Shown in pieces: positions 5,903 through 44,848 of a stretch of DNA of 64,000 bases. A program made the position numbers and the translations under genes. The DNA is taken from assembly GCA_905182075.1 (NCBI GenBank), contig CAJIZS010000001.1, forward strand, positions 806,001 through 870,000, given 5' to 3'. Position 1 is the first letter of the stretch, and the number at the start of each line of letters is the position of its first letter. The notes beneath the pieces are model-generated. The model was not told where the DNA came from. It was given only the letters and a program-made list of their open reading frames with translations, and ran no database searches. The stretch is from an uncultured Methylophilaceae bacterium. GTDB taxonomy: Bacteria > Pseudomonadota > Gammaproteobacteria > Burkholderiales > Methylophilaceae.

Positions 5903-6784
5903 ATCTCGAATAAAAAGAAACCACTAGTATCTCTATTTGCTTCAGCATATAGAACTGATAATTGGATGAGTATCTATAATAATTTTGGTAAACCTTCCTT
6001 AGTTGATCTTGAGTTTATTTTTGTGGGACCTAATAAGCCAAACTATGAGTTACCTGAAAATTTTCGTTTCATTCAATCTGCCGTAAAGCCTATTCAATGT
6101 CTTGAGATTGCAGCTAGAAATGCAATTGGAGATTTTATTATACAGGTTGCTGATGACTGCTTATTTAAAACAAAGCACCCGATAGATGAGCTTTATAAGA
6201 CATTCTTAAGAAATAAAAGTGAAAAAATAATTGTTTCATGTAGGTACTCGATGGATGATAAATTGGTACCCCTGGATGGCCAAAGGCTGATAAACGGAGA
6301 TCCTAAGTCACCCCTCGTGCAACTTTATGGTTTAATGAAGAGGAGCCTTTATAACAAACTCGGAGGCATGGATAAAAATTTTATTGCTGTCATGGGGGAT
6401 TACGATATAGCAATGCGTTTGTATTCGATCGGTGGAAAAGTTGTAATGAGTAAAGTGATTTTAAATGAAGATAGAGAGGCAGCTTCTCAGGGTGGCTCTT
6501 TATGTGTAGATTATTATAAGATTGACATGGGGTATTTACATTCTTTATGGGTAAAAAATAGTAAAACTGTGTTAAAAAGAGCAAGCAGATTTGAACCTTT
6601 TGATAACATTAATTTATTAAAGTTCTCCCAGGGACCTAGAGGCCGATGGCGAGGAAATGGATTTTTTCTTTATGAGAAAATTATTGATTCACCAAGATTT
6701 TTAAAAAAAATGGTTAGAGGAATTACCACCATATCAAGGTGTTTAAATTATGCTATTCGAATAATAAAACACCTATTAAAGTGA
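5903..6784 (+). CDS. Glycosyltransferase family 2-like protein, tandem copy 1 (start codon lost)
   Basis: This GT-A type glycosyltransferase is almost identical to the next gene. Visible elements are VSLFASAYRTDNW, an ADDCLF acidic motif at the expected nucleotide-sugar/metal site, and GGMDKNFIAVMGDYDIAMRLY, which resembles the acceptor-side motif of GT2 enzymes. The frame starts at an ATC (5903) exactly where copy 2 has ATG, after the same GGCAGGATAT leader. About 60 bases of N-terminal coding sequence present in copy 2 are also missing. The first in-frame ATG is at 5966, which would remove the first beta strand. It may therefore be inactive, or the ATC may be a sequence error. Confidence 0.75.
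   Translation: MSNKKKPLVSLFASAYRTDNWMSIYNNFGKPSLVDLEFIFVGPNKPNYELPENFRFIQSAVKPIQCLEIAARNAIGDFIIQVADDCLFKTKHPIDELYKTFLRNKSEKIIVSCRYSMDDKLVPLDGQRLINGDPKSPLVQLYGLMKRSLYNKLGGMDKNFIAVMGDYDIAMRLYSIGGKVVMSKVILNEDREAASQGGSLCVDYYKIDMGYLHSLWVKNSKTVLKRASRFEPFDNINLLKFSQGPRGRWRGNGFFLYEKIIDSPRFLKKMVRGITTISRCLNYAIRIIKHLLK
5939..6697 (+). repeat. Tandem duplicated gene segment, copy 1 (partner 6878-7636)
   Basis: This 759-base block is repeated 939 bases downstream with no length change. Most of it is identical base for base. Differences cluster in a few short patches, mainly 6266-6329, plus single sites near 6146 and 6404 and around 6570. Flanks on both sides diverge abruptly. Confidence 0.9.
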
Positions 6785-6793
6785 TGGCAGGAT

Positions 6794-7747
6794 ATGTCGA
6801 ATAATAATTCAGATATTTTTTTTAAACCAGCAAAAAGATTAGTAAAAAAAATAAATAAACCAGTCGTTTCTTTGGTTGCTTCAGCATATAGAACTGATAA
6901 TTGGATGAGTATCTATAATAATTTTGGTAAACCTTCCTTAGTTGATCTTGAGTTTATTTTTGTGGGACCTAATAAGCCAAACTATGAGTTACCTGAAAAT
7001 TTTCGTTTCATTCAATCTGCCGTAAAGCCTATTCAATGTCTTGAGATTGCAGCTAGAAATGCAATTGGAGATTTTATTATACAGATTTCTGATGACTGCT
7101 TATTTAAAACAAAGCACCCGATAGATGAGCTTTATAAGACATTCTTAAGAAATAAAAGTGAAAAAATAATTGTTTCTTGTAGGTACTCGATGGATGATAA
7201 ATTGCTTCCTGTGGAATCCTGCTGGTTAATAAAAGGAGATCCTAAGTCACCATTAATGCCACTTAGTGGTTTAATGAAGAGGAGCCTTTATAACAAACTC
7301 GGAGGCATGGATAAAAATTTTATTGCTATCATGGGGGATTTAGATATAGCAATGCGTTTGTATTCGATCGGTGGAAAAGTTGTAATGAGTAAAGTGATTT
7401 TAAATGAAGATAGAGAGGCAGCTTCTCAGGGTGGCTCTTTATGTGTAGATTATTATAAGATTGACATGGGGTATTTACATTCTTTATGGGTAAAAAATAG
7501 TAAAACTGTGATAGATAGATCAAGCAGATTTGAACCTTTTGATAATGTTAATTTATTAAAGTTCTCCCAGGGACCTAGAGGCCGATGGCGAGGAAATGGA
7601 TTTTTTCTTTATGAGAAAATTATTGATTCACCAAGAATATTCAAGCAATTAATTAGGGGAATTACTCAGCCTCTTAACTATTATAAATATTTAATTCGTA
7701 TATTAAATTTTTTAGTTTTAAAAATAAAGTTAAATCTAAAAAAATAA
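6794..7747 (+). CDS. Glycosyltransferase family 2-like protein, tandem copy 2
   Basis: This is the intact copy, 317 residues, starting at ATG 6794. It has the N-terminal strand VVSLVASAYRTDN, the SDDC acidic motif near residue 97, and GGMDKNFIAIMGDLDIAMRLY near residue 175, consistent with a GT-A fold glycosyltransferase acting on lipid-linked glycans at the inner membrane. A basic, hydrophobic tail could mediate membrane contact. Compared with copy 1 the differences concentrate in a block of about 21 residues upstream of GLMKRSLYNKLGG, which could set sugar specificity. The family is not certain beyond GT2-like. Confidence 0.8.
   Translation: MSNNNSDIFFKPAKRLVKKINKPVVSLVASAYRTDNWMSIYNNFGKPSLVDLEFIFVGPNKPNYELPENFRFIQSAVKPIQCLEIAARNAIGDFIIQISDDCLFKTKHPIDELYKTFLRNKSEKIIVSCRYSMDDKLLPVESCWLIKGDPKSPLMPLSGLMKRSLYNKLGGMDKNFIAIMGDLDIAMRLYSIGGKVVMSKVILNEDREAASQGGSLCVDYYKIDMGYLHSLWVKNSKTVIDRSSRFEPFDNVNLLKFSQGPRGRWRGNGFFLYEKIIDSPRIFKQLIRGITQPLNYYKYLIRILNFLVLKIKLNLKK
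6878..7636 (+). repeat. Tandem duplicated gene segment, copy 2 (partner 5939-6697)
   Basis: Second copy of the 759-base direct repeat described at 5939-6697; offset exactly 939 bases. Confidence 0.9.
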
Positions 7748-10322: not shown

Positions 10323-10443
10323 AATTTTATAATCCAATTTTGGTTAAAAGTAAAACTTTATAAATTATTAAATCACCAGCTGGTTAGTCACTCAACAGGG
10401 AAATAATGCAAAAAAATAACTTTAAACACTAAAAAAATTCTGT
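10323..10443 (+). other. Gap upstream of the TPP-enzyme run, possible 5' coding of E1 alpha
   Basis: An ATG at 10406 opens a short frame that would give a plausible E1-alpha leader (QKNNFK, then LKKFCMVDIRIRL) if one base is lost or gained near 10430. The rest is AT-rich with a small palindrome ACCAGCTGGT near 10375-10384. No clear promoter or terminator was seen. Confidence 0.35.
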
Positions 10444-11340
10444 ATGGTAGACATAAGAATTAGGTTGGTGGAAGAAAAAATTATCGAACTTTATCCTTCA
10501 GATAAAATACAAAGCCCAGTTCATCTTTCAATAGGTCAGGAGTCAGTTGCAGTTGCCTTGTGCGATCATTTAAAAAAAGATGATTGGCTTTTTATTAACT
10601 ATCGTGGCCATGCTTGTTATCTAGCAAAAGGTGGTCCGCTACCAGAACTATTTGCTGAGCTCTATGGAAAGAGAACGGGGTTATCAAAAGGTAAGGCTGG
10701 CTCAATGCACTTAGCTGACCCAGAAAATGGCACCATGGGTGCATCTGCGGTTGTAGGTTCAACTATCTCTCATTCAGTGGGAGCGGCATTAGCTTCTAAA
10801 ATTAGGGGCGAGGATAGAATTTTTGTAAGTATTTTTGGTGATGGCGCTACTGAACAAGGCGTCTACCACGAGTCACTTAATTTTGCTTCCCTACATAATT
10901 TACCTGTATTATTTGTGTGTGAAAATAACGAGCTAGCTGTTCATACGACTTTAGAGGAACGTCAATCTTATTCTGTTACTCCTCATGCAGAACAATATAA
11001 TATTAAAACCTTCAAAGGAAAAGACAGCACAGACTTTATGGGCTTAGGTGCTATATTTTCTGAGGCTTTGGGTGAGGTAAGGGTTAACCGCCGCCCAGTA
11101 TTGGTTGAGGTTTACACGTGTCGTTATAAAGAGCATGTAGGGCCCGGAGAAGATTATGATAATGGGTACCGATCGGAAGCTGATATAAATAAATGGAAGA
11201 TAAAAGACCCATTAATCGTTGATAAAATCTTAGTAGAAAAATTTACACCAAAAATTATGAGTGAAATTGATAAGGCAGTTGAGTTTGCTGAATCTTCACC
11301 TTACCCAAGTATTGATGACCTTTTAACTGATGTGATCTAA
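10444..11340 (+). CDS. Thiamine-diphosphate dehydrogenase E1 component, alpha subunit-like
   Basis: This belongs to the E1-alpha family (PdhA/AcoA-like), which carries the ThDP site of two-oxoacid dehydrogenases. Motifs include HLSIGQESVAV, WLFINYRGHACYL, GKAGSMHL, the ThDP motif GDGATEQGVYHESLNFA near residues 136-150, ENNELAVHT and YKEHVGPGEDYDNGYR. It is 298 residues, about 20-30 shorter than usual at the N-terminus. The true start may be 10406 with a frameshift. The beta subunit follows 2 bases later. No E2 lipoyl acyltransferase gene is nearby, so a role in sugar carboligation (as proposed for avilamycin AviB1/B2) fits better than a full dehydrogenase complex. That role is inference. Confidence 0.85.
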   Translation: MVDIRIRLVEEKIIELYPSDKIQSPVHLSIGQESVAVALCDHLKKDDWLFINYRGHACYLAKGGPLPELFAELYGKRTGLSKGKAGSMHLADPENGTMGASAVVGSTISHSVGAALASKIRGEDRIFVSIFGDGATEQGVYHESLNFASLHNLPVLFVCENNELAVHTTLEERQSYSVTPHAEQYNIKTFKGKDSTDFMGLGAIFSEALGEVRVNRRPVLVEVYTCRYKEHVGPGEDYDNGYRSEADINKWKIKDPLIVDKILVEKFTPKIMSEIDKAVEFAESSPYPSIDDLLTDVI

Positions 11341-11342
11341 TT

Positions 11343-12384
11343 ATGACTGATAAAAAAATGAAATATAGAGAAGCCCTTACTTTAGCGATGTCGGAAGCAA
11401 TGGAGGACCCGAAGTCTATGATCCTTGGCCAAGGAATTACTGATTTTAAAGGAATGTGGGGAACTACATCTGGGCTTTCTCAAAAGTATCCAGATAGAGT
11501 TATTGAAACACCACTGTCGGAAGATGCTGTTGCAGGGATATGTATTGGAGCATCTTTAAATGGTATGTACCCAATAAATACTCATATAAGAGCAGACTTT
11601 GGTTTACTAATTTTTAACCAATTAATTAACTTGGCTTCAAAGTACCGATATATGTTTGGTGGCTTATTTGAAGTCCCCTTATTATTTAGGATGGTCATAG
11701 GTAGAAGCTGGGGACAAGGCGCACAGCATTCACAAAGCCTCCAATCTTTACTATAACTGAAAAGGAATGGTTGTTTTAATGCCTTCTAACCCACAATCAG
11801 TGTTACAAAGTTACAGGCACGCTGTAAAAAATCATCGTGGTCCTGTTGTTATTTTTGAGCATAGGTTAATGTATGAGTTAGAGTTTGAGCATAATCAAAA
11901 GATAGAATCTGCTAATCCTTTTGACAGCAGAATAGATCGTCCTGGAAAAGATGTCACAATAGTAGCTACCTCTATTATGGCTCTTGAAGCCTCCAGAGCC
12001 GCAGAGTATTTATCAAAAAAAGGTATTGAGGTTGAGGTTATTGATCTTCACTCAATATCAAATCCAAATCATGAGTTAATTTTTAATAGCGTCAAAAAGA
12101 CTGGTCGTTTATTGGTTGCAGACACGTCATGGATTCCTTATGGAGTCGCCGCTGAAATCTCAAGAATTATTGCGGAAAAAGATCCAAGTGTTTTAAAGAA
12201 ACCAATTAAATCATTGGGTATGCAGCCAGCACCATGCCCTACCGCAAAGGCATTAGAAGATTTGTATTATCCTGATGTTAGAGACATTGTTTCTGACGTG
12301 GCAAGTCTTTTAGACAAAGATATTGAGTTACCACCAAAACAATCAATGACTGATTTTTATAAACACTTTAAAGGCCCTTTTTAA
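11343..12384 (+). pseudogene. Thiamine-diphosphate E1 component, beta subunit-like (frameshifted)
   Basis: E1-beta (PdhB/AcoB-like) partner of the preceding gene. The first part has YREALTLAMSEAM, ETPLSEDAVAGICIGAS and GRSWGQGAQHSQSLQSL, which is the signature of the family. A one-base break near 11750-11767 separates it from the second part (VVLMPSNPQSVLQSY, GPVVIFEHRLMY, VTIVATSIMALEA, DLHSISNPNHE, and the transketolase-C type domain). The joined length is about 346 residues, which is normal. The gene ends 2 bases before the next start. Confidence 0.85.
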
Positions 12385-12386
12385 GC

Positions 12387-13400
12387 ATGAATAGTACAAA
12401 TAATATATCTATAGAATTACCAAAAAATATAGTTAACGAATTATCTGGAAAAAAAGCTGTCGTAACAGGAGGGACCGGAATGATTGGTCGAGAGGTGGTT
12501 AGAATATTACTAGATCATGATTGTTCGGTTACAAGTGTTTCATTAGATGATTTACAGCCAGATTCAAGAGCCTCTTATGTTAAAGGTGATTTATCTGATT
12601 TAAGTTTTTGTCTGGATATCACCAATGGTGTTGACTATGTATTTCATGTGGCGGGGATTAAAGGGTCAGTAGTGGTAACAAAAGAAAAGCCTGCAAGTTT
12701 TTTTGTTCCATTACTCATGATGAATACAAATATGCTAGAAGCATCTAGACGAAACAATGCTTCAAAGGTACTTTATACAAGCTCTATAGGAGCATATTCA
12801 CCTGCTGAAATTTTTAAAGAAAGCGATGATGATTTAAGTATACCGCCAATGGATATGTTTCCAGGATGGGCTAAAAGAATGGCAGAGATGCAAATTAATG
12901 CTTATCAAATTCAATACAAGATGGATAATTTTGCAATAGTAAGGCCCTCTAATATTTATGGCCCTGGCGATAATTTTGACGAACAAAATGCCATGGTTAT
13001 TCCATCCTTGATAGCAAGGGTTCATAGAGGAGATGACCCGGTTAAAATTTGGGGAGATGGTTCGTCAGAAAGAGATTTTTTGCATGCAACTGATGCGGCA
13101 TTAGGCATTATTTTTGCATGTATTAATGGTACCGGTGGTAAGCCAATTAACCTTGGGTGTGGATATGGTATTTCAATTAAAAATTTAGTTGAAACGTTGC
13201 AGGAAGTTACCCCATTTAAAGCATTTTTTGATGTGGAAAAACCTTCTGGATTTCCGAGGAGGATAATGGATATGACCCACGCATCAAAAACAACTGGTTT
13301 TGTTCCACAAATATCACTTAAGCAAGGCCTTTCTAATACCTGGGATTGGTATAAAGAAAATACTGACGAACACCTTAAAAAACAAAACTACTTCAAATAA
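12387..13400 (+). CDS. NAD-dependent epimerase/dehydratase (extended SDR)
   Basis: An intact 337-residue extended SDR with the Rossmann motif VVTGGTGMIGREV near residues 26-38, FHVAGIKG, SSIGAYSP, RPSNIYGPGDN and GDGSSERDFLHATDAA. It should act on a nucleotide sugar in the cytoplasm. The usual YxxxK is written FPGWAKR, so the position four before the Lys is Pro instead of Tyr. The gene is packed 2 bases after the E1-beta stop, so its substrate is probably the product of the TPP enzymes (inference). Epimerase, reductase or dehydratase activity cannot be decided from sequence. Confidence 0.85.
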   Translation: MNSTNNISIELPKNIVNELSGKKAVVTGGTGMIGREVVRILLDHDCSVTSVSLDDLQPDSRASYVKGDLSDLSFCLDITNGVDYVFHVAGIKGSVVVTKEKPASFFVPLLMMNTNMLEASRRNNASKVLYTSSIGAYSPAEIFKESDDDLSIPPMDMFPGWAKRMAEMQINAYQIQYKMDNFAIVRPSNIYGPGDNFDEQNAMVIPSLIARVHRGDDPVKIWGDGSSERDFLHATDAALGIIFACINGTGGKPINLGCGYGISIKNLVETLQEVTPFKAFFDVEKPSGFPRRIMDMTHASKTTGFVPQISLKQGLSNTWDWYKENTDEHLKKQNYFK

Positions 13401-13458
13401 TCACATTTATGGATATTAAGTTGATCAAAATGCTAAATTAGGGGGATGAAAAAAAAGT

Positions 13459-15152
13459 ATGAGAAAAAAAAGTATGAGAGTCGTTGATTATATTATGCAC
13501 TTCCTTGTTCAGAAGGGTTCTGACAGTATATTTTTATTGACTGGAAATGGAGCTATGTATATTAACGACGCAATTGCAAAATATGACCAGTTAACATATT
13601 ACTGTGCAAGGCATGAAGCTGCAGCACCTATGATGGCGGAAAGTTACGCAAGATTAACTGGGAAACTTGGAATTGTATGTGTTACAAGTGGCCCAGGAGC
13701 TACAAATGCAGTTTCTGGTCTTGCTGAAGCTTGGGTTGATTCTGCCCCAATAATGGTGCTATCAGGGCAATCGCCAACAGATCAAATACCTAAAGAAGAT
13801 TCTATAAATAAAGTTAGGGGTTTTGGAACGGCTGGTTTTGATATTGTGCCTGTTGTTGAGCCGATGACTAAGTATGCGGTAACTATTAAAGATCCTAGTA
13901 CAGTCAGGTATCACTTAGAAAAAGCTTATCATGCAGCAACAAGTGGGCGGCCAGGTCCTGTGTGGATTGACTTACCTATGGATGTTCAATATGCAGAGAT
14001 AAATCCAGATAATTTGGAAAGTTTTGTGCCTGAGGTTGATGTATTAACAACCTCAGATGAAATAAAAGATATTTTCTCTTTATTTAAGAAGTCAAAAAAA
14101 CCTTTAATCTTAGGCGGGCATGGTTTAAGGCAAAGTAAGTCTCTTGATAAGTTTAATAAACTAATAAATCAACTCCAATTGCCTGTAGCCTTTTCAAGGC
14201 TAGGACAAGATATTTTGCCGTATTCTCATGATTTAAATTTAGGACAAGTAGGGAGAAGAGGCCAAAGATACTCTAAAGAATTACTATCTTCTGCAGACCT
14301 AGTATTAGTCCTCGGGTGCAGATTAGCCGCACCACTGGCAGGAGAAAACCTAGATCATTTTGATAAAAATTCAAAAATTATTATGATTGACATTGATCCA
14401 GCAGAACTTGAATTTCATAAAGAAAGATTAGATATGAAAGTCTGCGGCGATGTAAATTTATTCATCGATAAATTCCTTGCAGATTTAAAAGTAACCGAAA
14501 TGCCAGATTGGTCATCATGGTTAAAATCTTGTCAGTTACTAAAAGAGCGAAATCCTATGCTTGCTGTAATTTCCGTTATTAAAACCAAAAGATCCTGAGC
14601 CTTTCACACAGAAATGAAATTGAATAAAATCTGCATTTACATCTCTTTTAAATAGTTGATTTTCAGCAGTTTCATCATTTTGAAAAAAATCAAAGGGAAG
14701 TAACTTCAGCTGCTTATGCTGCAATGGGCTTATCAATTCCTTTAGCAATTGGCGCAGCTGTTGCTTGCCCCAAAAAACAAATCTTAGCGGTAACTGGAGA
14801 TGGGTCATTGGAGCTTAATATTCAGGAACTTAAGACTATTAGTTACTATGGATTTAATATAAAATTATTCGTAATAAATAACGGTGGCTATGTATCAATG
14901 CGAAAGTGGCAAGATAAGTTTTTTGATGGCAGGAGGATTGGCTCGGATGATGAAACAGGGGCAGAAATGCTTAATCTTGAGCTAGTGGCAAAAACATTTG
15001 AAATCCCATACAAATGCATACAAAAATCTAATGAAGTTAATGGGTCACTTAAAGAGATAATGGCTAGTTCAGGCCCAGTTTTTGTTGAAGTAGTATGTGA
15101 TTCGATGCAGGAAATCATTCAACCCTATCTTGAAACAGAGTTATCAAGTTAA
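13459..15152 (+). pseudogene. Acetolactate-synthase-like thiamine-diphosphate enzyme 1 (centre degraded)
   Basis: This is a three-domain ThDP enzyme of the acetohydroxyacid synthase/YerE type. The N-terminal Pyr domain has FLLTGNGAMYINDAI, ARHEAAAPMMAES and VTSGPGATNAVSGLAEAW. The middle domain has GRPGPVWIDLPMDVQ and KKPLILGGHGLR. The C-terminal PP domain has LAVTGDGSLELNIQELKT and VINNGGY, the GDG(x)NN ThDP/Mg motif. Coding sequence between 14550 and 14690 is damaged: part reads PKDPEPF in a shifted frame and then stops occur. The PP domain is in a continuous frame from about 14670. Its neighbours (transketolase halves, SDR) suggest a C2 transfer to a sugar. Confidence 0.85.
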
Positions 15153-15167
15153 TAATTTTTTTTAAAT

Positions 15168-15990
15168 ATGAATACATCTGAATTAATAAATATTTCAAAT
15201 AAGATCAAGTTAGAGGTCCTAGAATTGGCTGTTCTTAAAGGAAAAGGACATTTAGGGGGCACCTACTCTTGTTTAGATTTATTGGTCGCACTTTATTACG
15301 GAGATGTATTAAATATTAATGCGAACAACTTTGAAGGAAATGAAAGGGATAGATTTATTCTAAGTAAAGGCCATGCTTGTTTAGCTTTATATGTAATTCT
15401 AGAAGATTTAGGAGTTATCACTAAAGATGCACTTAATAGTTACGGAGAGAATGGTGGGTTAGGCGCGCAACTAGATATATCCGTTCCTGGGGTTGACTGG
15501 AATACAGGCTCACTTGGCCATGCGTTAGGAGTTGTAAGTGGGATAGCTATGGCATCTAAAATGAACAATAAAAGTTTTCATGCTTACACAATCTTGGGTG
15601 ACGCAGAGATGGCTGAGGGTTCTGTTTGGGAAGCTATTGCTTTTGCGGGAGATCATTGCATATCAAATGTAATAGGAATTATTGATAGAAATAGACTTTC
15701 TGTAACAGAAGTTCTTGAAGATGATGGTATTTTTAGAAATTATGCAGCAATAGTAGAGTCTCTTGGCTGGGTTGCTCTTGAGATAAACGGACATGACTAT
15801 GAAGAAATATTAGAAGCATTGAATAAAGCAAAAAATAATAAAAAACCAACAATGATCCTTGCAAATACAGTAAAGGTTACACTTAGTGTCATTCATGGAA
15901 AATTCATTAAAATGGCATCATTCAATCCCATCGAGTAAAGAGCTAGAAATAGCAAGAATAGAGCTTAGCGAAAAAATTAAAAATGGATAA
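15168..15990 (+). pseudogene. Transketolase, N-terminal subunit (3' end frameshifted)
   Basis: This is a split transketolase of the kind seen in archaea and in some secondary-metabolite clusters. Visible motifs are GKGHLGGTYSCLDLLVALYYG, DRFILSKGHACLALY, GSLGHALGVVSGIAMASK and the ThDP motif TILGDAEMAEGSVWEA, with IIDRNRLSV. The frame is intact to about 15870. The tail (normally KGKGVSFMEG) is frameshifted and then reads KWHHSIPSSKELEIA, ending at TAA 15988-15990. The C-terminal subunit begins 2 bases later, so the two would form one heteromeric enzyme. Confidence 0.88.
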
Positions 15991-15992
15991 AT

Positions 15993-16868
15993 ATGATAGA
16001 TATTAGAGACGCATTTTTTGATGAAATTTATGAAATAGCATCTAAAGATAAAAATATTGTCCTCATAACAAATGATATGGATATTTATAGCCTACGGCAA
16101 TTTAAGGAAAAATATCCTGATAGGTTTATAAATATTGGTGTTGCAGAGCAGAATATGGTGAATGTTGCTGCCGGTTTGGCTTCTTGCGGGAAAAAAGTTA
16201 TTATTTATGGGATATCTTCCTTCCTAGTAAATTCAGCTCGAACAAATAAAGTTTAATATTAAGTATAACTCTAATATAATTTCTCCTGTATCTAACGATT
16301 ATTTTATTCAAATCAATCAGCAAGAATTTTTAGACAATCAAGGAGTTGATGTACTAGCATCTCTCCCAGAGATGGAGATATTGAATCCGGGGGAAACCTT
16401 CTCCGCAAAATTATGCGCGAAGCTAGCGGTTGAGTCAGAAAAACCAACTTTTGTTAGATTGGATAAGGGCCCTTTCCCTGAGCTTAGTAGTGAAAAAAAT
16501 TTAATAGATAATTGTTTTAGTATTCTAAAGCCAGTGAAAAAAGTTAATATAATATCTACTGGGTCAATGACATCAAGGGCAATGAAAGTGTCAGAAGTTT
16601 TAGAAAATAAAGGAAATGAAGTTGGAGTTATAGATCTTTTTAGGATCAAGAATGGTTATATAATTTAAACCAAGATCCGATAGAAAAAATAAACTTAATT
16701 GAATCCGATATTGAGAAACTAAATGAACTTGAATTAATATTGAGTAATAAATTATCTGAACAAGTTAAACCTATATGGCCTAGTTTGCTTGACTGGCCTA
16801 TTTTTATAGATAAAACTTTGGATGAAAAAGTAAATAAAACTGACGAATATATATTTTGGGCTAATTAA
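15993..16868 (+). pseudogene. Transketolase, C-terminal subunit (frameshifted, internal deletion)
   Basis: This is the partner of the preceding subunit and carries the Pyr-binding and C-terminal domains. It begins MIDIRDAFFDEIYEIA and has IGVAEQNMVNVAAGLAS with the catalytic Glu for ThDP activation. The frame is lost near 16245, and the segment that normally contains the glycine-rich and H-G-L-E motif is missing. It then resumes (LPEMEILNPGETFSAKL, ISTGSMTSRAMKVSEVLE), breaks again near 16665, and ends in SLLDWPIFIDKT with a stop at 16866-16868. Two breaks and one deletion are present. Confidence 0.85.
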
Positions 16869-16879
16869 AAAATAATAAT

Positions 16880-17671
16880 ATGATTAAAGAAAAATTTGAT
16901 TTAAATAATAAAGTGGCTGTAATTACAGGATCTTCTAAAGGAATTGGTAAGGCAATGGCACAAGGATTAGCAGAATTTGGAGCTACAGTCATAGTAAGCA
17001 GCAGAAAACAAGAGGCTGTTGATCAGGTTGCTAAAGAATTCAACGAACTTGGATTAAAAACTGATTCTATTGAATGTCATGTTGCTAAACACGATGATAG
17101 AGTAAAACTTGTTGATAAGGTAATTGAAAAATATGGCCGTATTGACATATTAATAAATAATGCGGGTGGCGGAGGTCGATGGGGGAGTGAGGACGTATTA
17201 AAAACTGGCGAGGAAGTTTGGGAAGAAGTTTATGCCAAAAATACAACAGCAGCTATTAGATTTTCAAAAGCTTTTATTCCAAAAATGCAAGAAAAAAAAT
17301 GGGGAAGAGTTGTAACTATAACCTCAATTTATGGAATACAGGGCGGGGGTAGGCCTTGGTTTAATGTTGCAAAGACAGCTCAGACTGCTCTGATGAAAAA
17401 TTTTGCTCTTAATAAAGGCTTTATTAGAAAAGGAATAACATTTAATAGTGTTGCTCCTGGTGGAATATTTATCGCTGATACTGGTTGGGAGGAAGAAATG
17501 AAAAATAATCCCGTCGCGTTTGAAAAAAAACTAGATGAAGAATTTCGATTAGGGCGCCTTGGAACAACCGAGGAAGTTGCAAATGTTGTTACCTTTTTGT
17601 GTTCAGAGGCTGCGAGTTTAGTCAATGGGGCCTCAATTCATGTAGACGGTGGTGAAACAGTTGTTTTTTAA
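16880..17671 (+). CDS. SDR-family oxidoreductase (classical)
   Basis: An intact 263-residue classical SDR with the cofactor motif TGSSKGIGKAMA near residues 17-28, NNAGGGGRWG, VVTITSIYG with the catalytic Ser, and SVAPGGIF. The catalytic Tyr of YxxxK is Phe (WFNVAK). I believe Phe occurs in some members of this polysaccharide-associated subfamily, but I could not check. It follows the transketolase genes by 11 bases and probably reduces or oxidises the branched-sugar intermediate (inference). Confidence 0.85.
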   Translation: MIKEKFDLNNKVAVITGSSKGIGKAMAQGLAEFGATVIVSSRKQEAVDQVAKEFNELGLKTDSIECHVAKHDDRVKLVDKVIEKYGRIDILINNAGGGGRWGSEDVLKTGEEVWEEVYAKNTTAAIRFSKAFIPKMQEKKWGRVVTITSIYGIQGGGRPWFNVAKTAQTALMKNFALNKGFIRKGITFNSVAPGGIFIADTGWEEEMKNNPVAFEKKLDEEFRLGRLGTTEEVANVVTFLCSEAASLVNGASIHVDGGETVVF

Positions 17672-18620
17672 TAAAAAAATATTTTCAAAGGAAAAAAAAG
17701 AGGAAGATATAAAAGAGTTTTCTCAGCATTTTGGTTGCGATGAAACAGAAATTACAGATAAAACAAAAGAAGTTATACGAAAATATGATTTTTCTTATAA
17801 AAAATGTACCCAGGAAGAAAGAGATAAAATCATTCATGAAGTTCTAGGTAAAATCAAGACTGACATACAAGAAATTGGATCGCCTATAAGAACGGATATT
17901 TGGAATAAAGGCTGGGGAGAAAACCTTACAGCATTTAATGAAAACAATAGTGAGGATGCTTTTACTCCCAAGTTCATAAGACCTAGTGAGGTTATGAGGC
18001 TAAATGGAGATTTTGTAAAACCAAATGACTTTAATTTTGAAAGAAATTTCAGTTATGTTATGCGAAGTTATATCTGTGAAAATTATTTAATACCATATAA
18101 AAATATACATGAATTTGGCTCTGGCTCTGGGTTTCACCTAATTCCAATTACAAGAAGATTCCCAGATAAAAATATTTATGGGTCTGATTTTGTTCAAACT
18201 GCAGTTGATCTAATTAACAATATAGCAAAGCATTATGATTACAATTTATCTGCTAGTCTCTTTAATTTTATTGAACCGGATCCTGATTATAATATTCCTG
18301 AATCATCAGTTATCTGTACTTTTGGAGCAATCGAACAGATAGCCAGTAAATATAATAAATTTTTAGATTTTCTGTGAAAGGTTTTAATTTTTCATTATAT
18401 TGTTCCTGGTTTTGATGGTATGACTGATGAGAAAAACCTTGTAGATAGTTTAGCAATAAAATTTCATCGAAAAAGAGGTTACAGTGAGGGCATGATACCC
18501 AAATTAGAAGCTATGGATAAGTCCGGAAAAATTAAATTATTAAAGGTTAAGAGACTAAATTTTGGAGGCTTAATGTTTGAAGGCTTTACATTAATAGTTT
18601 GGAAGCCATTAACTTCATAA
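17649..18620 (+). pseudogene. SAM-dependent methyltransferase-like protein 1 (3' frameshift)
   Basis: This class I SAM methyltransferase-like protein belongs to the same family as the two copies at 18630 and 23627. Shared landmarks are PSEVMRLNGDF, NIHEFGSGSGFHLIPI (the SAM-binding glycine motif), and TFGAIEQIASKYNKFL. The frame is lost at about 18372 and resumes as EKNLVDSLAIKFHRKRGYSEGM to a TAA at 18618-18620. A GTG at 17649 gives the longest frame and overlaps the end of the SDR gene; a later start is possible. The likely role is O-methylation of a sugar or of the glycan, but no substrate can be named. Confidence 0.7.
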
Positions 18621-18629
18621 CATTTAACT

Positions 18630-19551
18630 ATGAAAATAAATAAAGAACAGATAAGCAACCTATTTGATTTAAAATTATCAGATGAAATTATTAGTTTGAT
18701 TGAGAACTTTAATCTTAACTACGATAATCTAAATTTGGCTGACAGGGATGCACATATTTTAAAATGCATCAATTTTCTAGATGAGACTATTGTTCCCTCA
18801 GGTAAGTCCAGAAAACCAGCTTGGGAAAACGGTTGGGGTGAAAATTTTGACGATTTTTATAATAGTGATTTAGATATAGATAAGTTGCTACCACATTATT
18901 ATAGAAGAGGAAGGTCTGTAATGAGGCTTCAGGGTGATTACATTCTCCCAGAAGACCATATGTTTGAAGCCAAAATTTTATCAATTATTCAAGCAATTTT
19001 AGCGGAAAATTTTTTAGGTAACTATAACGACATCTACGAGTTTGGAGCAGGACCTTGTCATAATATTGTTGCATTTGCTCAGAGACTAAAGAATAAAAAC
19101 TTCTACGTAACAGATTGGGTTGACCCAACCGTTAAAATTATCAAGCATATTGAAGCTAATAAAGATAAGATGGGTTTTGGATCACATAATTTTAACGGAA
19201 GCACTTTTGATTATTTTAATCTCGATCATAATTTTAAGATTAAACCGGGAAGTGTCGTATTAACATGGTGCAGCATGGAGCAGATTGGTTCGCAAAACAA
19301 AGAGCTGCTAAATTTTTTTCTATCCCAGTCCAACGTAGATTTTATTCATATTGAGCCAACTTTAGAGCTTTATCAAAATACTTTATTTGATCAATTAGCA
19401 CACGATTATTCAACTAAAAGAAATTATTTAAATGGCTATTTTAAAGACCTATTTGACTTAGAGGCTTCGAATAAAGTTAATGTTACATATAAGAAAAGAA
19501 TAATAGGTAGTGGGTTTAATGATTCGTGGACTATTATTTGTTGGAACAAAG
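18630..19551 (+). repeat. Dispersed 922-base direct repeat, copy A (partner 23627-24548)
   Basis: Bases from the ATG at 18630 to 19551 recur at 23627-24548 with only a handful of differences: TGGTGCAGC versus TGGGGAAGC near 19267, and three small changes near 19508-19527. Flanks are unrelated upstream of the ATG and diverge abruptly after TTGGAACAAAG. The copies are 4997 bases apart. Confidence 0.93.
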
Positions 19552-19841
19552 TAAATAGGATTTCAAATAGATCAAAAAAAATAAAACCACAACCTATGTT
19601 CGAGGTTTTGCAAAAAGCTAAAAACCTTGAAAATATTGGTAAAGATATTATTCATCTTGAAATTGGTGACTCAAGTTCATTTGAAAATACTCAGCTACAT
19701 AATTTAGTAAAAAAGAATTTAGCAGTAGAGGGCTCACTTCAGTACAGTCCATCAGGTGGAGAATCTAGGCTTAAAGAGGCATTTATTTATCATTATTCAC
19801 TTCTATGTAATTATGAATTTTCTAAAGAAGAAGTTGTATGA
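18630..19841 (+). CDS. Methyltransferase copy A fused in frame to an aminotransferase N-terminus
   Basis: The first 307 residues are a class I SAM methyltransferase-like protein nearly identical to the gene at 23627 (motifs VMRLQGDYILPEDH, IYEFGAGPCHNIVAFAQ, YVTDWVD). Where copy B ends with a stop two codons after ICWNK, copy A runs on in frame into NRISNRSKKIKPQPMFEVLQKAK, which is the start of a class I aminotransferase that has lost its own start codon. The open frame ends at 19841 where the aminotransferase becomes frameshifted. Copy A has Cys where copy B has Gly in TWxSMEQIG. Whether a true bifunctional fusion is made is unknown; the junction looks like a recombination scar. Confidence 0.8.
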   Translation: MKINKEQISNLFDLKLSDEIISLIENFNLNYDNLNLADRDAHILKCINFLDETIVPSGKSRKPAWENGWGENFDDFYNSDLDIDKLLPHYYRRGRSVMRLQGDYILPEDHMFEAKILSIIQAILAENFLGNYNDIYEFGAGPCHNIVAFAQRLKNKNFYVTDWVDPTVKIIKHIEANKDKMGFGSHNFNGSTFDYFNLDHNFKIKPGSVVLTWCSMEQIGSQNKELLNFFLSQSNVDFIHIEPTLELYQNTLFDQLAHDYSTKRNYLNGYFKDLFDLEASNKVNVTYKKRIIGSGFNDSWTIICWNKVNRISNRSKKIKPQPMFEVLQKAKNLENIGKDIIHLEIGDSSSFENTQLHNLVKKNLAVEGSLQYSPSGGESRLKEAFIYHYSLLCNYEFSKEEVV

Positions 19842-20713
19842 TCGTCTAAAAAATGGATTTCACCGAAAGATTATTTACTATTTTGGCAGAAGCAGCACGT
19901 TTAACAACACCGAAGCATTTTTTGAATCTGGATGAGTTCTGAATTCAATTCTTTAAAATTAGTTTTTATACATTATTAGAAAAAAATAATTTTCAATTTA
20001 CCTCTGATAAAATCATAGATACAATTAATAAAAATCCTCTGATTAAGATTGTTGTAATAAATAATCCCTCTAACCCGTTAGGAGTTCACCAACAGACTAC
20101 TGATATAAATGAGGTGGTTGAATTTTGTGCTCAAAAAAACGTAGCCGTAATTTGGGATGATACATACCGTAATTTGATATACGACGATAATGTGAAAAGA
20201 GATGTTAAGCATTGTTCTAATCTTTTTTATATCTATTCATTATCAAAAGATACTGCAGCTCCTGCCTTAAGAATTGGTTGTGTCATTGGTGATAAGCATG
20301 TAATTAAAAAAATTACCCAACATAACTCTATGTTTTTCTCATGTTTACCAAAATTTATTCAATTGGCTGCGGCTGATTATTTATTTGAAGATCATCGTCC
20401 ATATAGAATTGCCTTAAGAGATGCAATGATGAAAAGAATTGATAAAATTTGTGAAATTTTAAATGATGCACCTTTAATAACTTATGTGAAGCCTAATGCT
20501 GGCATTTATTTTTTCTTAAATATTTCTAGATCTAGTTTAGATGGAGACAGTTTTGCTGATCAATTTTTGCGTAAGTTTGATGTTTGTGTGTGTCCAGGTT
20601 TTGGTTTTGGACCTTCAGGTAAGGATTACGTAAGAATATGTATAAGTGGAAGTGAAGATAATGTATACGAAGGCACCAAAAGAATTGTGAAATTCTTTAA
20701 TAGTTTAATTTAA
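19554..20713 (+). pseudogene. Class I/II PLP aminotransferase (5' fused, middle frameshifted)
   Basis: This fold-type I aminotransferase would put an amino group on a keto-sugar or act on an amino acid. Evidence includes MFEVLQKAKNLENIGKDIIHLEIGD and LQYSPSGGESRLKEA at the start, NNPSNPLGVH (NPxNPxG motif) near 20060, WDDTYRNLIYD with the cofactor-contacting residues, and YSLSKDTAAPALRIG with the PLP lysine. It ends with ICPGFGFGPSG-like and YVRICISG motifs. The region 19842-20040 is frameshifted and probably shortened. Aminotransferases of DegT type are more usual in such loci, so a class I enzyme here is uncommon. Confidence 0.8.
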
Positions 20714-20732: not shown

Positions 20733-21752
20733 ATGAAAAATAAAAAAAGAGCTTTTATTACTGGGATATCAGGAATGGTAGGTTCTCATCTCGCTGAATT
20801 TTTATTTGAAAATACTGATTGGGAAATTATTGGAATGATTCGCTGGAGGAGTCCTTTGGATAATCTATCAGGAATAATTGATCATATAAATAAAAAAAAT
20901 AGGATATCTCTTGTTTACGCAGATCTAAGAGATCATATCTCAATCGATAAAGCAGTTGTCGATGCTAAGCCAGATTATGTATTTCATTTGGCAGCTCAAA
21001 GTTATCCACAAACAAGTTTTACAGCTCCATTAGATACCTTGGATACTAATATTCAAGGTACAACACGACTGCTTGAAGCATTAAAAAATCACTCCCCTGA
21101 AGCCATTATTCATGTCTGTGCTTCCTCTGAAGTTTATGGAAGGGTGCCTAAAGATAAAATACCAATTGATGAAGAATGTAGTTTCCATCCCGCTTCACCG
21201 TATGCAATTTCGAAAGTTGGAACAGACTTGGTTGGAAGATTTTATGCTGAAGCTTACAACATGAAAGTTATGACGACAAGAATGTTTACTCACACAGGAC
21301 CAAGAAGAGGCGATGTTTTTGCTGAGTCTTCATTTGCTAAACAAATTGCTATGATAGAGTCAGGTTTGATTCCACCAGTTATAAAGGTTGGAAATCTTGA
21401 AAGCCTAAGAACAATTGCTGATGTAAGAGATGCAGTTAAAGCCTACTATATGCTGGTAACGATAAATCCAACATCTGGCGAATCATATAATATCGGCGGC
21501 TCATATTCTTGTAAAATTAAAGATCTCCTTGATTACCTTATTTCACTTTCTACGGTCAAAAATATAAACATTGAGGTTGACCCTGATCGATTAAGGCCTA
21601 TTGATGCAGATTTACAAGTCCCAAACGCTGGTAAGTTTATTAAACATACAGGTTGGAAGCCAGAAATATCATTTGAGAGAACTATGGGTGACCTTTTGGA
21701 ATTCTGGAGACAAGAGATAAAAAATAATGGTCAGAAATATCTCTCTAGGTAA
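20733..21752 (+). CDS. GDP-mannose 4,6-dehydratase-like NDP-sugar dehydratase
   Basis: An intact 339-residue extended SDR with FITGISGMVGSHLAEFL, HLAAQSYPQTSF, CASSEVYG and SPYAISKVGTDLVG (YxxxK present), MFTHTGPRRGDVF and LRTIADVRDAVKAYY. These are GMD-subfamily signatures, distinct from the gmd at 9211. With gmhA, hddA and hddC in the same locus it could be a GDP-heptose 4,6-dehydratase (DmhA/MlghB type) leading to 6-deoxyheptose. That assignment is inference; the substrate could equally be GDP-mannose. The next gene follows after 1 base. Confidence 0.85.
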   Translation: MKNKKRAFITGISGMVGSHLAEFLFENTDWEIIGMIRWRSPLDNLSGIIDHINKKNRISLVYADLRDHISIDKAVVDAKPDYVFHLAAQSYPQTSFTAPLDTLDTNIQGTTRLLEALKNHSPEAIIHVCASSEVYGRVPKDKIPIDEECSFHPASPYAISKVGTDLVGRFYAEAYNMKVMTTRMFTHTGPRRGDVFAESSFAKQIAMIESGLIPPVIKVGNLESLRTIADVRDAVKAYYMLVTINPTSGESYNIGGSYSCKIKDLLDYLISLSTVKNINIEVDPDRLRPIDADLQVPNAGKFIKHTGWKPEISFERTMGDLLEFWRQEIKNNGQKYLSR

Positions 21753-21753
21753 T

Positions 21754-22641
21754 ATGAAAGCTATTAATATAAAATCAGAAAAATTAATTTTACCAGCTAT
21801 TGGAATTGGTACAATATTTTTTGAAGATATTTCAAAAAATTTAATTCCTATAAGGGGGATTTTTCGTCTAAGAAAATATATATTGATTTAATTGAAAATG
21901 CTTATGATATGGGGGCAAGAGCTATTGATACTGCAGAAAATTATGCAGAAGGTGCCTCAGAGGAGATAATAGGTGCAGTTAAGCCGTCAATTAAAAGTGA
22001 CCTATTTATAATGACTAAGTTTTCGCCTAATCACTCAGGATCAGGAGAAATTTCTAAGGCGCTAGACCGAAGTCTGAAAAGATTAGATAGGGACTATGTT
22101 GATCTTTACCAGCCTCATTGGCCATCAGGAGGTGATTTGGAAGGATTAGCTAATGAACTCCTTGACCTAGTAAACGCCGGAAAAATAAAGTACATTGGTT
22201 TATCTAACTATTCTTTGGAGTCTTACAAAGAAATCAATTCGTTTTTACCAAATAATAAGGTTAAATTCATTCAATCTGAATATGGACCTTTTGAAAGATC
22301 TGCTGAATTAAATTATTTACCTGAACTTAAAAATAATAATTCAGTTTTTAATTTATGCTATTATGGTAGGTGGAAGTGTTGCCGAAATAGGAGACGCTTC
22401 AATATTATCCTTTGGACCATTTGAAAATAATTCAACTATTGCACAACTTATTTTAGCATGGACAATTCGTTCGGGCTCGGTAATTACTATTCCAAAAGCC
22501 AGCACTAAAGAAAAACTCGTGGAGAATCTTGAGACATTAACAATGACTTTTAGTCAAGATTCTTTGGTAAAGATTTCTAATATCTTTAAGCCTGAAGTAA
22601 AGAGATATTTGGGTGAATTTGCTTTAATAACAAGGTTCTGA
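21754..22641 (+). pseudogene. Aldo/keto reductase (frameshifted)
   Basis: This NADPH-dependent AKR superfamily TIM-barrel enzyme begins at ATG 21754 with ILPAIGIGT. After a break near 21850-21900 it reads MGARAIDTAENYAEGASEEIIG (catalytic Asp and Tyr), IMTKFSPN with the catalytic Lys, SLKRLDRDYVDLYQPHWP, GKIKYIGLSNYS and IQSEYGPFER. A second break near 22350-22400 removes the loop after the Gln motif. The C-terminus has ILAWTIRSGSVITIPKASTKEKLVENL, the AKR cofactor-binding motif. It would be a sugar reductase in this context. Confidence 0.85.
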
Positions 22642-22665: not shown

Positions 22666-22739
22666 GCGGGTGTAGTTCAATGGTAGAACTACAGCCTTCC
22701 AAGCTGTTGATGCCGGTTCGATCCCGGTCACCCGCTCCA
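22666..22739 (+). tRNA. tRNA-Gly (anticodon UCC), CCA encoded
   Basis: A complete 74-base cloverleaf: acceptor GCGGGTG pairs with CACCCGC, D-stem GTTC/GAAC, anticodon stem ACAGC/GCTGT around the loop CTTCCAA (anticodon TCC), T-arm with TTCGATC, discriminator T and encoded CCA. It lies in a roughly 210-base gap between the reductase and the TylF-type gene, an unusual place for a tRNA, inside a polysaccharide operon. Confidence 0.97.
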
Positions 22740-22767: not shown

Positions 22768-22863
22768 ATGTTAAAAACAGTATACAATCTTGCCCATATA
22801 TTTTATTTGATAGTAAGAGACCAATTCCATCAATCATTATTGAATAAGGAAGATTATGAGTAA
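22768..22863 (+). CDS. Possible 31-residue leader peptide
   Basis: An ATG frame of 31 codons (begins MLKTVYNLAHIFYLI) lies between the tRNA and the TylF-type gene and overlaps the next ATG (TATGAGTAA). It could be a translationally coupled small ORF or simply chance coding; there is no family evidence. Confidence 0.2.
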   Translation: MLKTVYNLAHIFYLIVRDQFHQSLLNKEDYE

Positions 22864-23620
22864 AATTAAAAATGAAATTGACGTAATACATTACGGAAGT
22901 GAAGAAGAGGTAAGCGGCAGAAATCATATGATGGCATTAATGGAAAATTGCCCAATACCGAAAGACCAATTACTAGAGAATATTGGCTTGTTTATTGACT
23001 CTAAAAAATTATCACGTTTTTTATTCATGGATCATATCTATAAAAAAAATGTTGATATTCAGGGAGTTGTAATGGAGTTTGGAACTAGGTGGGGTCAAAA
23101 TTCTGCATTATTTTCAGCTTTAAGAGGAATATACGAGCCATTTAATCGTCATAGGAAAATTATTGCATTTGATACCTTTACAGGATTTCCATCGGTAAAT
23201 GAGAAAGATGGAGCCTCCGAATTAATGACACCTGGACAGCTATTTACTGCGGATAAATATGATAAATATTTAGACGATGTGCTTGATGCCCAAGAAGCAC
23301 TAAATCCAATTAATCATATTAAGAAGCATGAGGTAAGAAAAGGCGATGCAATTATAGAGCTTGAATCTTATCTTAAGGAAAATCCAGAAACTATTATTTC
23401 ATTAGCTTATTTTGATTTCGATATATATGAGCCAACAAAAAAATGTCTTGAATTAATTTTACCAAGATTGACTAAAGGATCTGTAATAGGTTTCGATGAA
23501 TTAAATGACCCGGATTCTCCAGGAGAAACTCTAGCATTGATGGAGGTAATAGGACTTAATAACATTAGTTTAAAGCGCTTTAAATATGCCTCAAGAGTAT
23601 CTTATTACATAGTTGAATAA
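22856..23620 (+). CDS. TylF/MycF-type macrocin O-methyltransferase family protein
   Basis: An intact 254-residue SAM-dependent O-methyltransferase of the TylF family, whose characterised members methylate sugar hydroxyls on macrolides. Visible features are VVMEFGTRWGQNSALFSALRG (SAM-binding motif I), IIAFDTFTGFP, LAYFDFDIYEPTKKCLE with metal-binding aspartates, and GSVIGFDELN. A Shine-Dalgarno AAGGAAG precedes the ATG. It is likely to O-methylate a sugar of the glycan. Confidence 0.85.
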   Translation: MSKIKNEIDVIHYGSEEEVSGRNHMMALMENCPIPKDQLLENIGLFIDSKKLSRFLFMDHIYKKNVDIQGVVMEFGTRWGQNSALFSALRGIYEPFNRHRKIIAFDTFTGFPSVNEKDGASELMTPGQLFTADKYDKYLDDVLDAQEALNPINHIKKHEVRKGDAIIELESYLKENPETIISLAYFDFDIYEPTKKCLELILPRLTKGSVIGFDELNDPDSPGETLALMEVIGLNNISLKRFKYASRVSYYIVE

Positions 23621-23626
23621 TGATTT

Positions 23627-24548
23627 ATGAAAATAAATAAAGAACAGATAAGCAACCTATTTGATTTAAAATTATCAGATGAAATTATTAGTTTGATTGA
23701 GAACTTTAATCTTAACTACGATAATCTAAATTTGGCTGACAGGGATGCACATATTTTAAAATGCATCAATTTTCTAGATGAGACTATTGTTCCCTCAGGT
23801 AAGTCCAGAAAACCAGCTTGGGAAAACGGTTGGGGTGAAAATTTTGACGATTTTTATAATAGTGATTTAGATATAGATAAGTTGCTACCACATTATTATA
23901 GAAGAGGAAGGTCTGTAATGAGGCTTCAGGGTGATTACATTCTCCCAGAAGACCATATGTTTGAAGCCAAAATTTTATCAATTATTCAAGCAATTTTAGC
24001 GGAAAATTTTTTAGGTAACTATAACGACATCTACGAGTTTGGAGCAGGACCTTGTCATAATATTGTTGCATTTGCTCAGAGACTAAAGAATAAAAACTTC
24101 TACGTAACAGATTGGGTTGACCCAACCGTTAAAATTATCAAGCATATTGAAGCTAATAAAGATAAGATGGGTTTTGGATCACATAATTTTAACGGAAGCA
24201 CTTTTGATTATTTTAATCTCGATCATAATTTTAAGATTAAACCGGGAAGTGTCGTATTAACATGGGGAAGCATGGAGCAGATTGGTTCGCAAAACAAAGA
24301 GCTGCTAAATTTTTTTCTATCCCAGTCCAACGTAGATTTTATTCATATTGAGCCAACTTTAGAGCTTTATCAAAATACTTTATTTGATCAATTAGCACAC
24401 GATTATTCAACTAAAAGAAATTATTTAAATGGCTATTTTAAAGACCTATTTGACTTAGAGGCTTCGAATAAAGTTAATGTTACATATAAGAAAAGAATAA
24501 TAGGAAGTGGGTTTCATGATGGGTGGACTATTATTTGTTGGAACAAAG
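23627..24548 (+). repeat. Dispersed 922-base direct repeat, copy B (partner 18630-19551)
   Basis: Second copy of the repeat described at 18630-19551. Confidence 0.93.
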
Positions 24549-24565: not shown

Positions 24566-25060
24566 ATGAACTACAAAAAAGTCTTTAAAACACCATTTTT
24601 TGAAATTGAAGAATCTACAGAAAAATTTGATAATAACTCACCACATTACAGAATTAACAGTAGTGACTCTGTAATATGTTGCTTGATTAATGACGAAGAT
24701 AAAATAGTTCTAGTTAGTCAACTTAGGCCAAATTTAGGTTATGAGACACTAGAATTTCCAGCTGGAGGTATTGATAGGAATGAGTCACCAATTCAAGCTG
24801 TTTCAAGAGAAGTTAGAGAGGAAACAGGTATGACATGTGATTTTAAGGCGTTAGGTTCCTATAGACTTTTAATGAATAGAACGGTTAATAAAGAGCATCT
24901 TTTTGTAGGGTTAGTTAAAGAAAAAGGAAAAGGAAATCTTGAGGATTTAATTAATGTTAAAGAAATTGATAGAAAAAAATTTTTATCCTTGGTAAATGAT
25001 AATAAATTTGAACAGTTAGCAGCATTAGGGATTATTCAATTAATTAATTTAAAGTTTTAA
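24566..25060 (+). CDS. Nudix hydrolase (ADP-sugar pyrophosphatase-like)
   Basis: An intact 164-residue Nudix protein. The Nudix box is complete: a Gly-Gly-Ile-Asp start, E seven residues on, and REVREETGM, matching GX5EX7REUXEEXGU at about residues 69-91. It should hydrolyse a nucleoside diphosphate linked to another group, perhaps recycling a nucleotide sugar. The ATG follows copy B by 9 bases, so it is likely in the same operon. Confidence 0.88.
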   Translation: MNYKKVFKTPFFEIEESTEKFDNNSPHYRINSSDSVICCLINDEDKIVLVSQLRPNLGYETLEFPAGGIDRNESPIQAVSREVREETGMTCDFKALGSYRLLMNRTVNKEHLFVGLVKEKGKGNLEDLINVKEIDRKKFLSLVNDNKFEQLAALGIIQLINLKF

Positions 25061-41998: not shown

Positions 41999-42012
41999 GT
42001 GATTAAATTTTT

Positions 42013-42098: not shown

Positions 42099-42133
42099 TA
42101 AATCTTTAACAATTTATTATCTAGGGGTTTGCT

Positions 42134-43344: not shown

Positions 43345-43347
43345 ATA

Positions 43348-44514: not shown

Positions 44515-44580
44515 TTAATAGAAATATAGGAACTAATTTTAAATATTTAGACTAATTTTAATGGTCATAATATTTATAAG

Positions 44581-44832: not shown

Positions 44833-44848
44833 TAGTTTTAATAGGCAT

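Follow-up and report, generated by a model that had tools for sequence, protein, structure and literature searches.

A gene cluster with three kinds of thiamine diphosphate-dependent carboligase and a putative role in branched 6-deoxyheptose biosynthesis in an uncultured Methylophilaceae bacterium

A cluster of sugar genes encoding three kinds of thiamine diphosphate (ThDP)-dependent carboligase was analyzed in a stretch of 64,000 nucleotides from an uncultured Methylophilaceae bacterium (GCA_905182075.1, contig CAJIZS010000001.1, positions 806,001 to 870,000; hereafter the window, whose own numbering is used). Based on the gene content and its conservation in other genomes, the region of about 10.4–28.3 kb, which would be part of a larger surface-polysaccharide island, is proposed to make one or more GDP-activated, carbon-branched 6-deoxyheptoses. 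Our confidence in this proposal is only somewhat above even because the family scores of the HddA-like, HddC-like, and methyltransferase-like proteins are weak. In a Pfam scan of the open reading frames (ORFs), all cluster genes from 10444 to 17671 lie on the plus strand and are arranged head to tail. The E1 alpha subunit (10444–11340; E1_dh, PF00676, 169 bits) is followed by an E1 beta subunit divided over two frames (Transket_pyr, 11343–11756; Transketolase_C, 11767–12384) and by an NAD epimerase/reductase (12387–13400; PF01370), which is nearest to GDP-L-fucose synthases (best PDB match 7ll6, 124 bits) and scores 159 bits against the NCBIfam GDP-fucose synthase family with its cut-off of 500. 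Next are a YerE-like carboligase, again in two frames (TPP_enzyme N and M domains, 13459–14598; C domain, 14724–15152), the N subunit of a split transketolase (TK-N, 15168–15938; Transketolase_N), its frame-broken and truncated C part (TK-C; Transket_pyr, 15993–16256; partial Transketolase_C, 16372–16668), and a short-chain dehydrogenase/reductase (SDR; 16880–17671; PF13561, 168 bits), a candidate branch-ketone reductase. A preliminary description of this DNA had recognized an E1 alpha/beta pair, an acetolactate-synthase-like enzyme, and a split transketolase in tandem with an epimerase and an SDR, which the Pfam domains bear out. It had given the gaps as mostly 2–16 bases; with breaks inside genes excluded, the intergenic distances are 2, 2, 58, 15, 54, and 211 bases, so that this holds for three of the six and fails for 58, 54, and 211. 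The genes of its 7 kb run are present, but it missed the frame breaks, the cut TK-C, and the extension of the module beyond 17671 to about 28.3 kb.

The E1 pair is of the glycan type, with an alphaKADH2-like E1 alpha, and belongs to a subfamily that is sited among sugar-nucleotide genes in many loci. Against equivalog families of pyruvate dehydrogenase (PDH), E1 alpha scores 242.6 and 145.3 bits where the cut-offs are 393.85 and 411.35, and the two halves of E1 beta score 104 and 107 bits against a cut-off of 321. A two-gene E1 within a sugar gene cluster, separate from the PDH of the cell (whose AceE is encoded elsewhere), is a feature shared with alphaKADH2 enzymes. As previously noted, E2/E3 genes are missing nearby: no E2 or E3 domain was found by Pfam in 29 reading frames of the window and some further ones, a set that does not comprise every ORF and was not extended to a whole-genome E2/E3 search. 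Relatives of E1 beta (E 1e-24) occur in 12 of the 274 genomes of the class, the window's own counted, and share a segment of the type IGRGWGQG.

The genes downstream point to a heptose as the sugar concerned. The product of 20733–21752 is a GDP-heptose 4,6-dehydratase-like (DmhA-like) enzyme, the nearest solved relative of which is a heptose enzyme (7us5, 360.5 bits) and not a GDP-mannose dehydratase (135 bits or less). It is accompanied by the C-terminal half of an RmlC-like 3,5-epimerase (25325–25597; PF00908 positions 80–162 of 168), a GDP-fucose-synthase-like epimerase/reductase (25725–26576; NF047922, 126 bits, under the cut-off of 500), a partial ORF for a GHMP kinase resembling the heptose 7-phosphate kinase HddA (26727–27539; NF049969, 102 bits; PDB 3k85 and 4n3o), and an HddC-like sugar-1-phosphate nucleotidyltransferase (27544–28344; NF049965, 122 bits). 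HddA/HddC-like genes, a relative of the 4,6-dehydratase (7us5), an RmlC-like epimerase, and fucose-synthase-like reductases are common to this set and the GDP-6-deoxyheptose capsule pathway of Campylobacter jejuni, which leads from sedoheptulose 7-phosphate through GDP-heptose to a 4-keto-6-deoxy intermediate and its epimers (PMC10680097). In contrast to the window, no ThDP enzyme is named in the passages of that paper considered here, and the word "branched" is absent from its text. A candidate for the sedoheptulose-7-phosphate isomerase is the GmhA-like SIS-domain protein at 2748–3413 on the plus strand (PF13580, 88 bits), which lies 7.7 kb before E1 alpha and is the sole above-cut-off match in the genome; it may instead serve the lipopolysaccharide core.

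Co-conservation of the E1 pair with the heptose genes was assessed across GTDB genomes scanned with an E1 beta alignment, in which at least 583 stretches matched and at least 556 encoded relatives. The best 80 loci, many of them short, were kept and divided at thresholds of our own (E1 alpha at least 49% and the C-terminal half of E1 beta at least 44%) into 37 window-like loci and 43 others; an E1 alpha match is present in 78 of the 80 (E 1e-10). A DmhA-like gene (at least 40%) occurs in 32 of the 37 window-like loci versus 8 of the 43 others (Fisher p 1e-9, a value that ignores relatedness). The same tendency was observed for HddA-like (28/37 versus 14/43), HddC-like (24/37 versus 13/43), and RmlC-like relatives (11/37 versus 1/43), for the SDR (at least 40% identity; 9/37 versus 0/43), and for relatives of the TylF-like protein at 22856–23620 (at least 50%; 6/37 versus 1/43), and homologues of the methyltransferase-like protein at 17649–18377 (at least 30%) are found in 6 of the 37. 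In a tree of the 66 E1 alpha rows passing the length filters, in which not every one of the 80 loci is represented, the window falls within a clade of 27 rows with support of 100/100, and 22 of these rows come from loci with a DmhA-like gene, the window itself counted. Over the whole tree, the DmhA label changes 12 times as against a mean of 22.2 when shuffled (0 of 500 shuffles as low). The preliminary description had proposed genome co-occurrence of its seven genes as a check; the carboligase and split transketolase accompany E1 in just 3 of the 80 loci. Two side observations were made in the same sample. Seven loci (L072, L073, L074, L093, L102, L104, and L118) each carry a further, different E1 alpha/beta pair, which often adjoins a relative (47–50%) of the window's SDR, and such loci could place two C2 branches on one sugar or act on two sugars. 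In addition, a B12-binding radical-SAM protein (L072:4600–6027, L090:18964–20400), possibly for C-methylation or ring chemistry, occurs in 8 of the 37 window-like loci.

The second ThDP enzyme is closer to YerE-like enzymes than to acetohydroxyacid synthases (AHAS). Its N-terminal part scores 201 bits with 8rph and at most 165 bits with AHAS among PDB entries, where 8rph is JanthE, a YerE-like enzyme (PMC12188165), and for the intact orthologue in L073, 8rph is the only match at E 1e-75. In a tree of 37 sequences, in which the window rows are N-terminal parts only, several long branches are flagged, and L071, L011, and L001 are left out by the ORF filter, 17 carboligases split from 20 sequences on the AHAS side with support of 100/100; the 17 include both carboligases of the window, and the rest come mostly from glycan clusters. 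The orthologues carry the usual GDG motif, whereas JanthE has CDG. YerE and ErwE act on CDP-3,6-dideoxy-4-keto-glucose (PMC12247030); in contrast, the window carboligase forms, together with a split transketolase, an operon-like unit beside GDP-heptose genes. A plasmid search at E 1e-60 gave no match, and at E 1e-140 the 398 phylum genomes searched yielded only the window's own gene and two carboligases of another YerE-like branch, one in a CDP-sugar cluster (L153) and one on a 7.6 kb contig (L156).

Another carboligase belonging to this broad group is encoded within the window at 44849–46661, and the region 39255–46661 places it near aminotransferase and NeuB genes and near genes that by eye are CDP-glucose-dehydratase-like. 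Four loci of the genus conserve this carboligase alongside NeuB, with identities of 57–83% and 56–85%, respectively. At L043:8798–16866 and L153:8320–13803, YerE-like carboligases adjoin genes that by eye encode an HpcH/HpaI-type aldolase, an acylating acetaldehyde dehydrogenase, and a hydroxy-oxovalerate aldolase. These neighbors could supply 4-hydroxy-2-oxo acids, the donors preferred by ErwE (PMC12247030). L043 is of the same genus as the window and holds a different E1 pair with its YerE-like enzyme and the aldolase and acetaldehyde dehydrogenase genes, a differing set which indicates that the genus varies its C–C bond-forming sugar enzymes.

For the third ThDP enzyme, the nearest solved relative of TK-N is the split transketolase 6yak, and the last residues of TK-N depart from the frame of the family. 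TK-N relatives (at least 32%) are present in 16 of the 80 loci, 12 of them window-like, and half of the 16 also have a relative (at least 27%) of the window's aldo/keto reductase. The carboligase, TK-N, and TK-C genes are contiguous and in the same order in L071, L073, and L094, with 48–62% identity in the N-terminal part of the carboligase. In L071, moreover, the window's relative order is kept from E1 alpha and E1 beta through the carboligase to TK-N and TK-C, with an aminotransferase gene (a relative of that at 20114–20713) in the place of the epimerase between E1 beta and the carboligase. Because the order recurs in L071 and the unit is contiguous in all three loci, the three-enzyme arrangement is not due to chance.

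In human transketolase, Arg318, Ser345, His416, and Arg474 are taken here to be the phosphate-binding residues. Fourteen loci were tried for a comparison at these sites and 11 TK-C relatives could be aligned; L076, L081, and L097 had no TK-C ORF passing the filters, and the broken TK-C of the window stands outside the count. All 11 relatives differ at the equivalents of Ser345 and His416, with Gly in place of His in every one, and the equivalent of Arg474 is Lys in eight, Arg in one, and another residue in two, whereas Arg318 is retained throughout. The canonical phosphate site of transketolases is therefore not preserved in these relatives. The readable piece of the window's own TK-C has Arg at the place of Arg318 and Tyr at that of Ser345; the solved split transketolase 6yaj retains Ser, His, and Arg at these sites (alignment read by eye). 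The changed residues suggest that the donor or the acceptor of this transketolase is not an ordinary sugar phosphate.

The substrates, products, and order of steps that we infer for the cluster would be as follows. The DmhA-like dehydratase would generate GDP-4-keto-6-deoxyheptose, the C3/C5 configuration of which could be reset by the RmlC-like enzyme. The E1 pair, operating without E2/E3, would decarboxylate pyruvate and attach the resulting acetyl unit at the ketone of the sugar to give a nine-carbon branched sugar; an acetyl-branched 6-deoxyheptose would be the most economical product for this pair. The branch ketone might then be reduced by the SDR and/or the aldo/keto reductase, and hydroxyls could be capped by the methyltransferase-like proteins. 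Together, the YerE-like carboligase and split transketolase may act as a second C–C bond-forming unit, by which a moiety derived from a keto acid or a ketose is attached to this sugar or to a sister one. The preliminary description had left the acceptor as a GDP- or dTDP-4-keto sugar, and the company of genes narrows this and points to GDP-4-keto-6-deoxyheptose as the probable acceptor. Its suggestion of an unusual branched sugar is favored by the kinship with JanthE and by the E1 subfamily among sugar-nucleotide genes, but all three enzymes need not act on one sugar. We consider it quite unlikely that ThDP enzymes make two or three C–C bonds in succession on a single GDP-6-deoxyheptose, which would yield surface sugars with roughly 9 to 12 carbons as an undescribed sugar class with a C2-branching core in many, largely uncultured, phyla; closure of such a skeleton into a carbocycle as in bradyrhizose would be speculation.

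Several observations weigh against a branched 6-deoxyheptose as the product. After 7us5, the next PDB matches of the DmhA-like enzyme are GDP-6-deoxyhexose reductases (204 and 150 bits), and it is under the NCBIfam gmd cut-off as well. For the HddA-like protein, NF049969 is the only NCBIfam match, yet its 102 bits compare with a cut-off of 600 and span positions 80–282 of 338; for the HddC-like protein, NF049965 is the best match, with 122 bits against a cut-off of 300, and mannose-1-phosphate guanylyltransferase is the runner-up family with 87 bits. For the methyltransferase-like proteins, family matches are weak or absent. At the stricter level of at least 49%, the DmhA-like gene drops to 22 of the 37 window-like loci versus 5 of the 43 others, and on the E1 alpha tree it is clustered but not as one event. 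Five of the 37 lack it at 40%, and four lack both DmhA and HddA; three of these four are contigs of 3.3–7.7 kb, and L099 (20.4 kb), which has a GMD-like gene, is a real exception. In the window, the C-terminal domain of TK-C matches profile positions 5–47 of 124 only. Finally, the carboligase–transketolase unit is rare among the 80 loci and separable from the E1 pair, which speaks against all three enzymes acting on one sugar.

This last point leads to the alternative that fares best, namely, that the island holds two pathways, in which the E1 pair would branch the heptose and the product of the carboligase and split transketolase would be something else, either a different nucleotide sugar or a keto acid, ketose, or acyl unit without phosphate. 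Such a division is possible, if doubtful. Its rarity aside, carboligase–TK-N–TK-C is a unit of its own, which in L073 and L094 is encoded on the other strand from E1, and the changed phosphate site is consistent with an unphosphorylated substrate. On the other hand, all three loci with the unit are glycan clusters with window-like E1, in a sample that is biased since the loci were gathered by E1, and HddA- and DmhA-like genes are likewise present in two of them (L073 and L094), L071 being a contig of 7.7 kb. The search of the 398 phylum genomes at E 1e-140, the one search that did not proceed through E1, supplied no further orthologue with which to test the two-pathway division.

We regard it as unlikely that the island copy has decayed and that the organism of the window no longer makes the product. 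Frame breaks are present in E1 beta, the carboligase, TK-N, and TK-C, the last of which also stops at position 47 of its 124-position domain profile, and a near-identical repeat of 923 bases lies within the cluster. All sequence was analyzed unmended. On the other side, uninterrupted reading frames span E1 alpha, the epimerase, the SDR, and the DmhA-like gene. Between TK-C and the SDR gene (16668–16880), a frame of 74 residues that reaches the SDR gene has no Pfam match and could mark the site of a deletion or a chimeric assembly. A resemblance to the end of a sulfatase, noticed by eye in a stretch after TK-C, gained no backing from Pfam. The genome (1.1 Mb, completeness score 47%) encodes AceE (C1:732249–734792), AHAS (C1:22860–23300; both pieces match "acetolactate synthase 3 catalytic subunit" best), and a one-piece-type transketolase (C1:541761–542725; TIGR00232) elsewhere, all broken in like manner. 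Because these housekeeping genes are broken alike, the frame breaks are likely assembly errors (indels).

These counterparts also make the three ThDP enzymes of the cluster extra copies. The preliminary description had given separate central-metabolism roles, with the genes scattered in relatives, as what would overturn it, and the presence of the counterparts elsewhere speaks against that. A role in PDH, branched-chain amino acids, and pentose phosphates was rejected as very improbable: the Pfam family names alone would permit it, and an E1_dh profile search of the genome gave no second two-subunit-type E1 alpha (the next match being the window's TK-N), but E1 alpha is well below the PDH cut-offs, the carboligase is nearest to JanthE, and the genes adjoin and are co-conserved with sugar genes.

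The rest of the module proposed for the branched 6-deoxyheptose, likewise on the plus strand, comprises a weakly matched methyltransferase-like protein (17649–18377; Methyltransf_25, 16 bits, under the cut-off of 27), an ORF in which a conserved protein of no known family runs into the beginning of a class I aminotransferase (18630–19841; no Pfam match at E 0.5), the C-terminal part of that aminotransferase class (20114–20713; PF00155, 77 bits), an aldo/keto reductase in two frames (21909–22641; PF00248, 96 bits at 21909–22424 and 22 bits at 22363–22641, just under the cut-off of 24), a weak TylF/Methyltransf_24-like protein (22856–23620; Methyltransf_24 23.6 bits, TylF 16.6 bits, both under cut-off), and a NUDIX hydrolase (24566–25060; PF00293, 49 bits). 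By eye, the conserved protein at the start of the ORF at 18630–19841 is a sugar methyltransferase. The 923-base direct repeat (18629–19551 and 23626–24548, about 5 kb apart; 99.35% identical, 6 mismatches) encodes this conserved protein without a Pfam match and is a real duplication or an assembly artifact. A tRNA-Gly (tcc) gene at 22666–22739, between the aldo/keto reductase and TylF-like genes, is possibly an old integration site. Upstream of the module, the tandem genes at 5966–6784 and 6794–7747 are 94% identical across 813 bases and glycosyltransferase-like by eye, with no Pfam match at E 0.01 for the first. The module looks acquired, since the DmhA-like gene was not found in 30 other genomes of the genus (E 1e-60; several of them incomplete).

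Each of the three enzyme classes has been listed among sugar-branching enzymes. A 2025 review treats them one class at a time: alphaKADH2 enzymes transfer C2 units to keto sugars, YerE-like enzymes transfer acyl groups, and split transketolases are proposed sugar branchers, untested in vitro, with all 13 from streptomycetes (PMC12247030). The preliminary description had seen only partial precedent; this holds insofar as the classes are treated singly, but the precedent is wider than stated because the review covers all three. KbDH-alpha/beta of kibdelomycin and AviB1/AviB2 of avilamycin are two-gene E1-type ThDP enzymes that carry C2 from pyruvate to a keto sugar (PMC12247030, PMC4753412). The window pair resembles the alphaKADH2 enzymes as an E1 pair in a sugar cluster, a likeness by description and not by sequence comparison with KbDH, AviB1/B2, or the aldgamycin members; the described cases belong to antibiotic sugars, whereas the window pair lies in a surface-glycan island beside GDP-heptose genes. 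The split-gene transketolases of amipurimycin and miharamycin, likened here by description, also stand in a sugar-branching context (PMC12247030), whereas those of the window type are in surface-glycan clusters with altered canonical phosphate-site residues, unlike the streptomycete setting. In a literature search mostly without subscription journals, no paper was recognized that combines the three enzymes in a single surface-glycan cluster or an E1 pair with GDP-heptose, and some such clusters may already be included in the genome mining of Krug et al. 2024, on which the review relies. In the literature searched, the enzyme classes are each known singly, and their combination and the GDP-heptose platform are undescribed.

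The proposal names a concrete acceptor, GDP-4-keto-6-deoxyheptose, the enzymatic preparation of which has been described (PMC10680097), and surface-glycan split transketolases would be candidates for the acceptance of ketones, an open question in the 2025 review (PMC12247030). The loci with related E1 pairs include those of SAR11, Nitrospirota, Elusimicrobiota, and Azospirillum. If the proposal is true, C2 branching by E1 pairs would not be limited to antibiotic sugars and would form part of a GDP-heptose route in many phyla.

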